Shown here in pieces: positions 12,530 to 55,291 of a DNA stretch of 64,000 bases (position 1 is the first letter of the stretch; each line of letters starts with the position of its first letter). Both the position numbers and the translations under genes were made by a program. The DNA lies in assembly GCA_029532415.1 (NCBI GenBank), contig JAQOTA010000046.1, forward strand, positions 1,736,001 through 1,800,000, written 5' to 3'. Origin of the DNA: Marasmius tenuissimus. Its lineage: Eukaryota > Basidiomycota > Agaricomycetes > Agaricales > Marasmiaceae. The notes under the pieces are model-generated. The model saw nothing but the letters and a program-made list of their open reading frames with translations, made no database searches and had not been told where the DNA came from.

Positions 12530-13099
12530 TAGTGATGCGCGGGCTCAGGCTCGGCTCAAAGCCTCGGGCTTGGGCTCGGCTTTGAGGGCTTAGGCTCACT
12601 GAAATCCGAGCTCGAGCCTTGAGCCCAAGCCTGAGGTCAAAGCCCTGGGGCTTGGGCCTGAGCCCGGGCTTATACTAATCTCGTACATTATCACGGTAAG
12701 GAAAATAGAACATGTTAAACAGCGTAGAATCCGTCTTGAAGTCCCTTCCAACCATTGCCTGCCAAACATGTTGGTCCAGGGAGGCGCAATCAACACATCT
12801 TCTGTGACTGGTAGCCTGGGCTCAGTGAGTATTGACCTCAATTTCAGCCACAAAAAATAAACAAGTCTCACCTACTATTGTTGTCAACACGGGGGCTGAC
12901 AATTCTCGGAGGACTAGAATAATTTTAATTCTCGCCGGTGGACAATGTCAGAGGGCCTGAGCCTAGGGCTTGGGCTTATAAAATGTCGAGCCCGAGCCCT
13001 AAGCCCCCTGAAGCCCTCTGCCAGGGCTGGGCTGGGCTTTTCAAGCCCCGGGCTCGGCTTGGGCTCACCAGGGCTCAAGCCCAAGCCCGCACATCACTA
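12530..13099. mobile_element. hAT-type MITE, 570 bp, in GMC intron 1
   Basis: The ends are inverted repeats: TAGTGATGCGCGGGCT on the left and, read from the right, TAGTGATGTGCGGGCT. They continue as a degenerate GGGCTTGGGCTC-type repeat for about 100 bp at each end. An exact 8-bp duplication CTATTAAT flanks it, the size made by hAT transposases. The interior has no long open frame, so it is non-autonomous. Removing it with one duplication leaves a 54-bp intron with a normal GTACAT donor and CAG acceptor, so it landed inside an existing small intron. The G-rich purine/pyrimidine asymmetry of the ends is typical of this widespread TAGTGATG element type. Confidence 0.9.
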
Positions 13100-33031: not shown

Positions 33032-33040
33032 GGTCACTCG
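33032..33040. repeat. Left target duplication of short Mutator-like element
   Basis: GGTCACTCG, exact copy at 33493-33501. Confidence 0.85.
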
Positions 33041-33492
33041 TAGTCCTGCGTTTCTGAGTTTAAATTTGGCTGGAACTGGTTTATGATCGAGTTTGCCTGT
33101 TTCGTTGACATGGGAAAGTTGTGAATAGTCATATAAGGAAAGCAATCGGGCCGTGCAAATTCTTCCTTCCCTTGTTATTTCGCGCTCTTCAACAAGTTGG
33201 CAATAATGAGCACCCAGTAAGTGGTAGTTCAACCAAACCAGCATTATCGCTGTAGAATCAAATGGACTCACTCGGTACAGTAATCTCAATCCATACTCAG
33301 CATTGACCAGAAAAATTCGCGGGTGGGAACAAAAATGCCCGATCACCTTCCTTATACGACTATTCTAAAATTCCCATGTCACCCAAAGAAGATGTCTCGA
33401 TCATAAACCAGTTTCAGCCAATTTTAAACTCAGAAACACAGGTCCTTCAATACATGCTTGTCATCGTCATTGAAGGACCGGTTACAGGTCTA
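33041..33492. mobile_element. Short Mutator-like element (452 bp), hairpin at right end only
   Basis: Flanked by an exact 9-bp duplication GGTCACTCG, the size made by Mutator transposases. The ends are inverted repeats over about 90 bp: inward from the left CGTTTCTGAGTTTAAATTTG and then CTGGTTTATGATCGAG, with the same read from the right. The right end has an extra insert between the terminal TAGACCTGT and the shared repeat: an 11-bp perfect stem (33441-33451 with 33469-33479) around a 17-nt loop. The left end goes straight from TAGTCCTG to the shared repeat. There is no coding capacity. It belongs with 54300-55282 by terminus, hairpin core and duplication size. Confidence 0.8.
33441..33479. 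repeat. Subterminal hairpin A
   Basis: Perfect 11-bp stem GGTCCTTCAAT / ATTGAAGGACC around the 17-nt loop ACATGCTTGTCATCGTC. The loop is related to those of hairpins B and C, but the inner stem is not. Confidence 0.9.
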
Positions 33493-33501
33493 GGTCACTC
33501 G
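33493..33501. repeat. Right target duplication of short Mutator-like element
   Basis: GGTCACTCG, exact copy of 33032-33040. Confidence 0.85.
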
Positions 33502-54290: not shown

Positions 54291-54299
54291 CTTTCCCAC
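54291..54299. repeat. Left target duplication of long Mutator-like element
   Basis: CTTTCCCAC, matching CTTTCACAC at 55283-55291 in eight of nine bases. Confidence 0.75.
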
Positions 54300-54313
54300 T
54301 AGGCCTGTCACGC

Positions 54314-54351
54314 GGCCCCTCACGGACGAGCAAGCTGAGTCGTGAGGGGCC
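54314..54351. repeat. Subterminal hairpin C (left end)
   Basis: Perfect stem GGCCCCTCACG / CGTGAGGGGCC around the 16-nt loop GACGAGCAAGCTGAGT. Confidence 0.9.
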
Positions 54352-55230
54352 TGTAAAACGGAAGCAAATTCTCCGCCAGACATTTTAGGGATTTGCCGGA
54401 CAGAATATGGAAACGGGCTGCTTACTATCTAGAGTAAAAAGTTCTCAGGACCCTTAAATAGTAACCACCACGTTGCTCTGACGCGTCGCGCTCATGGAAC
54501 CTCCTGCCTCCCCATCGAGGTTATTACCGTAGATAAGATTAATTTGCGGCTTCTACTCTCGTTCTGATGTTTTGTTTCGAAGACCACCGAACAAACCTAA
54601 ACCTAAACGGACACAAACGAAGAATTCTTTCAGCGGCAGGACTCTATCGCACGACCAATTCAATGCTCAGAACATTCTGTAGACGCTTCAAAGGTGAAAT
54701 GGTGATTGTAATCCTGTGTCTGCCAGCCAAATGAACGAGCAAGGCCACTGCTTTAATGTCTTCCCCGAACCTGTCCCTGCTGTCAACGCCGAGTCGTGAT
54801 TGATGGAGTTTACCACGAATCGGAGTTGATGTTCGCGTGGAATTTCTCGGCCATTCGTGGTATGAAAGGCAATAACGATAGTTCGAAGTGCAGTTAGTTC
54901 TTGCCGGAAAGTGAGGTGATATAGGTATACGGATAGGTTGGGTTGGCTGGGATGTCATAGCGCTCGAGAATTTGGAGTAAAGGTGTATTTTGCATGGTAA
55001 GAATATCTTCTACATAGTCGGCTACCGTCTGGCAGCCCTCTGTGATCATTGTAGAAGAGAAAGCCGAGATCGCTAGAACGTAACTGACGGAAGTTGAGCA
55101 GGAGGTCGCGCCAGCGCGTCCGTGCACGGGCCCTGAGAATATTCTACTCTAAATGGTAAGCGAGGTGGTTTCCATATTCTGTTCGGCAAATCCCTAAAAT
55201 GTCTGGCGGAGAATTTGCTTCCGTTTTACA

Positions 55231-55269
55231 GGTCCGTATATACCCAGCTTGCCTCGTCATATACGGACC
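55231..55269. repeat. Subterminal hairpin B (right end)
   Basis: Perfect stem GGTCCGTATAT / ATATACGGACC around the 17-nt loop ACCCAGCTTGCCTCGTC, the complement of the loop in hairpin C with small differences. Confidence 0.9.
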
Positions 55270-55282
55270 GGTGACAGGTCTA

Positions 55283-55291
55283 CTTTCACAC
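55283..55291. repeat. Right target duplication of long Mutator-like element
   Basis: CTTTCACAC; see 54291-54299. Confidence 0.75.

Follow-up and report, generated by a model that had tools for sequence, protein, structure and literature searches.

Terminal hairpins that stay paired while their letters change between lineages of a DNA transposon in Marasmius tenuissimus

How can the two ends of one mobile element carry perfectly paired hairpins with stems that disagree at 6 of 11 positions, when the inverted repeats just inside them are 62/63 identical? The question was raised by an earlier reading, made from the letters alone, of a stretch of 64,000 nucleotides of Marasmius tenuissimus DNA (the window; contig JAQOTA010000046.1, positions 1,736,001 to 1,800,000), which proposed that some process copies or replaces whole hairpin arms. 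At the window coordinates the unlike perfect stems and the near-identical inner repeats were both borne out, as was a loop core, GACGAG/CAAGCTG, present in both loops. Positions 54300-55282 form a single element of 983 bp with a perfect 11 bp hairpin at each terminus, and both ends are ordered as tip, outer arm, loop, inner arm and inner repeat (Table 1). The stem length was reached by none of 500 dinucleotide shuffles at either end, and folding of the two ends as single-stranded DNA gave z values of -2.2 and -3.1, with an equally good fold in 6 and 3 of 200 shuffles, respectively. Perfect stems of at least 10 bp with loops of 8-45 occur eight times in the window; this element and a relative at 33041-33492 account for four. 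A further 10 bp inverted repeat, TACCACGAAT, lies within the element at 54811-54862.

Table 1. Coordinates in the window of the 983 bp element, its parts and flanks, and of a second element in the same stretch.
Feature	Position	Strand	Remark
Left target-site duplication CTTTCCCAC	54291..54299	+	8/9 match with right flank
Left tip TAGGCCTGTCACGC	54300..54313	+	common to relatives
Left hairpin, outer arm GGCCCCTCACG	54314..54324	+	perfect 11-mer
Left hairpin, loop GACGAGCAAGCTGAGT	54325..54340	+	
Left hairpin, inner arm CGTGAGGGGCC	54341..54351	+	perfect 11-mer
Left inner terminal repeat	54352..54414	+	in the window copy, homogenised in part with its right counterpart
Internal deletion junction	54676..54677	.	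approximate, relative to the 6 kb copy C7:6841636-6847640
Right inner terminal repeat	55168..55230	-	
Right hairpin, inner arm ATATACGGACC	55231..55241	-	perfect 11-mer; minus-strand letters
Right hairpin, loop GACGAGGCAAGCTGGGT	55242..55258	-	minus-strand letters
Right hairpin, outer arm GGTCCGTATAT	55259..55269	-	perfect 11-mer; minus-strand letters
Right tip TAGACCTGTCACC	55270..55282	-	minus-strand letters
Right target-site duplication CTTTCACAC	55283..55291	+	8/9 match with CTTTCCCAC
Second element (G family, same clade, 452 bp)	33041..33492	+	perfect 9 bp duplication GGTCACTCG at 33032-33040 and 33493-33501
Right-end hairpin of the G element, GGTCCTTCAAT / GACGATGACAAGCATGT / ATTGAAGGACC	33441..33479	-	minus-strand letters

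The two ends belong to one element, as the earlier reading had assumed: five other copies with both ends carry the same hairpin pair, and target duplications rule out an origin of the ends from different elements. Relatives were sought across the 71 Mb genome. All six copies of subfamily A that have both ends (the window copy, two on C7 and those on C3, C41 and C69) share one left and one right stem, and among eight left and seven right A-type ends, a C28 copy with shortened ends being excluded, a single base departs from this pattern, in one left end. The stems are lineage-wide, not copy-specific as the earlier reading had supposed, and because the same pair recurs across copies the two stems were already unlike when the family spread. 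Of 21 A, B and C entries, including miniature copies (minis), 15 could be assessed for a target duplication and 6 could not; it is present in 12 (perfect in 11, 8/9 in the window copy) and absent in C7b, C62a and m30a.

The 62/63 identity of the inner repeats proved to be a misleading yardstick for the stems. In the other five A copies the left and right inner repeats agree at 55, 56, 56, 59 and 57 of 63 positions and in the B copy at 40, while both copies of subfamily C, in which the two stems are alike, score 62/63. Compared with the long C7 copy, the first 232 bases of the window left end differ only at seven positions, between 75 and 105, and five of these differences are right-type letters. 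The window right end in turn has left-type letters at positions 71-72, and a private C at 75 is common to both window ends. The homogenised tract, at element positions 71-105, is private to the window copy and stops short of the stem region (15-52), and to set 1/63 against 6/11 is to set a recent patch against an old difference. A diverged 70 bp mini at C62:62988-63057 has outer arms of which one is left-like (GGCC..CTCAAT) and the other right-like (GGTCTGT), which also suggests that the difference between left and right stems is old.

Between lineages the pairing of the stems is retained. In six stem types from homologous ends, all 66 of 66 pairs are Watson-Crick, with one bulged G omitted from the count in two types; two-sided change is seen at 7 of the 11 stem positions, and stem bases 1, 2, 4 and 7 are invariant. 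Since a MAFFT alignment of the A, B and C ends misplaced the bulged G, pairing was counted with arms set by hand. Among the 720 permutations of the inner arms only the true assignment yields 66 pairs (next best 64, mean 47.7); as the types are related by descent the result is not a probability from independent samples, and the accompanying loop comparison with G_R, being unaligned, carries no weight. In a separate comparison of arms, own-arm pairing is 1.0 by the choice of arms, which leaves the cross-arm values as the informative part. The types form a chain with one difference between A_L and C, one between C and B_L, two between B_L and G_R, three between G_R and A_R and two between A_R and B_R. 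Given this gradation, the left and right stems are the far points of a series and not unrelated swaps. That relatives keep pairing while the letters change suggests that the shape of the ends weighs more than their spelling. In a shuffle test of 11 types scored on the perfect stem alone, the bulged stems B_L and C were matched by 97 and 83 of 500 shuffles, which is not significant, and the stem length of F4_L by 6 of 500.

Lineages of unlike sequence in the same genome also bear end hairpins, as found at the ends of two more elements encoding DUF6589 (a protein family that the window element's long relative also encodes, see below) and of the families tied to them. Element F2 (C11:640509-647543; a 99% copy lies on C30) carries CGTTATGTCTCG as its left stem and AGCCGTTCTCC as its right stem. 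Relatives were sought by a shared inner motif, which occurs at 34 places (control 3), and 26 ends were compiled; the relatives have the left tip and a large part of the loop in common with F2, with a paired left stem of CGGTATGGCAT type and the right stem as in F2. F6 (C7:4950418-4956285) uses a single stem, CCAGACGGCTACA, for its two ends; the right one has a single one-sided change. An apparent wholesale inversion of the loop in F6/F7 is explained instead by a nested element: the 407 bp F7 (L128:896-1302; C7:4950495-4950901) sits inside the left inner repeat of F6 with its own 9 bp duplication AACGAACCC, and its hairpins have two unlike stems, the left one of 7 bp only. Target duplications match at 9/9 for F6 and F7, and in all four G-family copies with both ends fetched a duplication is found, at 8/9 in one of them. 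The 452 bp G element of the window has no hairpin at its left end (33041), and a copy 100% identical to it, with its own duplication, lies at C7:4513049-4513500. Of 11 F-clade pairs three lack a tip and five of the other eight have 9/9 duplications; the remainder are one on C27, which fails, and two copies on C20 with exchanged flanks. The latter (C20:60696-62462 and C20:76177-77943) are inverted F2 copies whose flanks AACACACAC and CGGTTGAAT are swapped, as they would be had recombination between the two copies inverted part of the chromosome. At C30:700480-700670 (L118, L107) an F3 element abuts the right end of an F2 element, and the outer half of the F2 hairpin is missing there. A scan of the window and the fetched loci for a TAG tip with a perfect stem of at least 10 bp picked up 22 distinct sequences, of which 21 belong to the hairpin-ended families; the loci had been fetched for these families, so that the count is no independent test.

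Within lineages the picture is one of ordinary decay. Among 50 end copies assigned to 11 types (excluding 4 of the 26 F-clade ends, for which no assignment was possible), private changes per position number 10/1106 in stems, 12/738 in tips, 13/1183 in loops and 8/841 in the inner stretch, so that stems gain changes at about the rate of the other parts. Seven of the ten stem changes fall at paired positions and three at the bulged base; all seven are one-sided, and two-sided changes number 0 of 7 in this small sample. Each of the ten is a C to T or a G to A change, and C69b and C69c have theirs in common. The G family adds nine hairpin-bearing ends, of which two (L133 and L134) have one-sided changes and none, judged by eye, a two-sided one. 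The sequence-only reading had held that ordinary drift could not account for the stems and had named mismatched drift at the rate of the inner repeat as evidence against itself; this drift is what the copies exhibit within lineages.

The window copy matches the first 377 and the last 607 bp of a 6.0 kb copy at C7:6841636-6847640 and is a non-autonomous internal deletion derivative of this long form. Five reading-frame pieces of the long copy were compared with Pfam: two contain DUF6589, one contains DEAD (a match below the cut-off) together with DUF87, and two are empty. A RecQ-like helicase is matched with E = 1.5e-13 in F2 and E = 1.8e-4 in the A family. The best protein match of the DUF6589 piece is from Marasmius crinis-equi, with 83% identity across 66% of the query. 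Its predicted fold comes nearest to DDE transposases with weak scores, and the Foldseek comparison returned no significant match; the DUF6589 protein is probably a DDE transposase. The genome contains 98 pieces (not elements) matching DUF6589. At C11:706601-708551 a B-type element has an open frame of 353 codons, which presumably resembles a Tc1/mariner transposase.

Mutator-like elements (MULEs) have target duplications of about 9 bp and long terminal repeats, and the element had been taken for one of them. Both features are shared; the difference lies in the genes, which are DUF6589 and a RecQ-like helicase. A Mutator-like identity was rejected, since PF10551, the MULE transposase domain according to part of PMC8290104, is found in none of the five pieces (other short pieces were unscanned). 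The closest known group is AcademH, matched in target-site duplication, terminal inverted repeats and an encoded helicase. AcademH transposons were reportedly first described by Kojima in 2020, in Mob DNA 11:15. In this group, too, a helicase lies beside a transposase. Excerpts of other papers give AcademH target duplications of 9 or 10 bp (PMC10045372), a range that includes the 9 bp seen here, and a low copy number in Basidiomycota (PMC10799480).

Shortened copies point to the hairpin loop as a place where the ends break. Both halves could be read in seven shortened A/B elements. In five of these (an element of 152 bp and four minis of 79-86 bp) one break falls exactly after the loop motif CAAGCTG, and all five have perfect 9 bp duplications; the other two, m30a and m57, break elsewhere and have no duplication. 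Seven half-hairpin G pieces (L141-L147) were also found; in five the breaks lie inside a span of three bases at the corresponding place in the loop, and in the other two they lie in the inner arm. In L143 (C33:1089906) a 40 bp insert consisting of tip, outer arm and half loop lies between perfect 9 bp repeats TCGAGTAGA, as though the loop had acted as an end; in the stretch fetched around the other six, no duplication with 8 or 9 matching bases is present. Such breaks suggest that opening takes place preferentially in the loop.

Our preferred explanation, to which we assign a probability of roughly 0.6, is that the window element is an internally deleted cut-and-paste element of AcademH type whose end hairpins serve as structural signals in the DNA; active lineages would keep them paired while their letters drift by compensated change. 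Each terminus would be a module of TAG tip, hairpin and inner repeat, and the left and right hairpins would be old features, inherited and particular to their end. As long as a lineage is active its stems would have to stay paired with their letters largely free, so that they would drift one or a few pairs at once, and in a dead or idle copy they would decay one-sidedly like the remaining sequence. Most likely, selection keeps the pairing and the changes are supplied by ordinary or template-switch mutation, with switching between arms as a likely source of the compensated ones. Strong selection for pairing had been among the options of the sequence-only reading, and the 66 of 66 pairs between lineages are in agreement with it. 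We infer that the hairpin would act as DNA, extruded or formed from a single strand upon binding of the end, and would be handled by the transposase and helicase of the element. A more specific version is possible and tentative: recognition would be by shape, with the transposase and RecQ-like helicase using a cruciform or single-strand hairpin with an opened loop, so that the loop breaks and the 40 bp insert would be by-products and the end-specific stems free letters under a pairing rule. Two observations weigh against a strict need for the hairpins. The four G-family left ends that were read have no hairpin, yet these copies have duplications of their own, and because this family is mobile, hairpins are not needed at both ends; the minis, too, moved or arose during movement with shortened or no stems. 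Given both, the hairpins may help or regulate, or may serve at one end only.

The chief competitor, which we consider unlikely, is pure mutation bias, in which polymerase template switching copies one arm onto the other and perfect stems arise without function. In the G-family copy on C55 (L139, C55:273800-273905) the loop of the right hairpin is exactly inverted between intact arms, and template switching in yeast repeat arms leads to arm homogenisation and spacer inversion (PMC8604942, in part); template switching in general can produce multi-base compensatory changes (PMC8794818, in part). The arm-to-arm templating proposed in the sequence-only reading gains from this known mark of a template switch and stands to that extent; its copy-by-copy replacement of arms does not. 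Frequent copying also predicts private two-sided changes, which the small within-lineage sample lacks, and leaves the placement of hairpins at the ends of lineages with unlike sequence unexplained. It is decidedly unlikely that the arms are protein-binding sites, the inverted sites of one end co-evolving through one protein with pairing as a by-product. The tip letters GRCCTGT recur at the end of the inner arm (GRCC, then TGT) and the four invariant stem bases would suit such a site, but one site would hardly tolerate a left-right difference of 6/11, and a second, end-specific surface would be needed. That the hairpins work at the RNA level, by structuring read-through or terminal transcripts, is highly improbable: the window hairpins fold as RNA with raw energies of -25.6 and -20.8 kcal/mol, taken without a shuffle control, but they end at position 52 while open frames of at least 90 codons in the 6 kb copy start at least 135 positions in from either end, and their orientation is mirrored at the two ends. 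Unit-wise capture or replacement of arms copy by copy, suggested by 6/11 beside 1/63 in the window copy, is scarcely credible against stems common to a whole lineage, a private conversion behind the 1/63 and intermediates one to three pairs apart.

Hairpins at mobile ends are known from other systems. In IS200/IS605 the transposase recognises subterminal hairpins at both ends, movement is single-stranded and no target duplication is made; the fungal element shares the hairpins and differs in its 9 bp duplication. Integron attC sites, which are not transposon terminal repeats, likewise retain structure under varying stem letters, whereas the fungal hairpins lie in transposon ends; we know of no protein relation between the two. 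Helitrons combine a helicase with one hairpin, at the 3' end, make no target duplication and use other helicase and nuclease families, in contrast to the duplications and the hairpins at both ends of the window element. Membership in either the Helitrons or an IS200/IS605-like group is contradicted by the 9 bp duplications. No mention of DUF6589 was found in the literature searched. End-specific terminal hairpins are not mentioned in the excerpts of AcademH texts, the founding paper lying outside this check, and such ends are undescribed in the titles and opening lines of abstracts among the matches listed for Academ, hairpin, palindrome and terminal repeat, as well as in excerpts of PMC9587614 and PMC12730594. 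Within these sources, and leaving the founding AcademH paper aside, the element is a variant on a known kind of transposon.

These ends would offer a test case for structure-guided DNA transposition in a eukaryote, as they keep a hairpin while changing its letters and come with a RecQ-like helicase of their own. Cut-and-paste transposons normally have ends that are recognised by their sequence, and if reading by shape were true the hairpins would be a DNA counterpart of structural RNA within such a transposon. DUF6589, a Pfam family of unknown function, becomes tied to transposons, and the hairpin ends provide clean material on the open question of how compensated changes originate in DNA hairpins. 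Elsewhere in the window, at 12540-13090, there is a patch of GGCTTGGGCTC-like words, repeated in both orientations.
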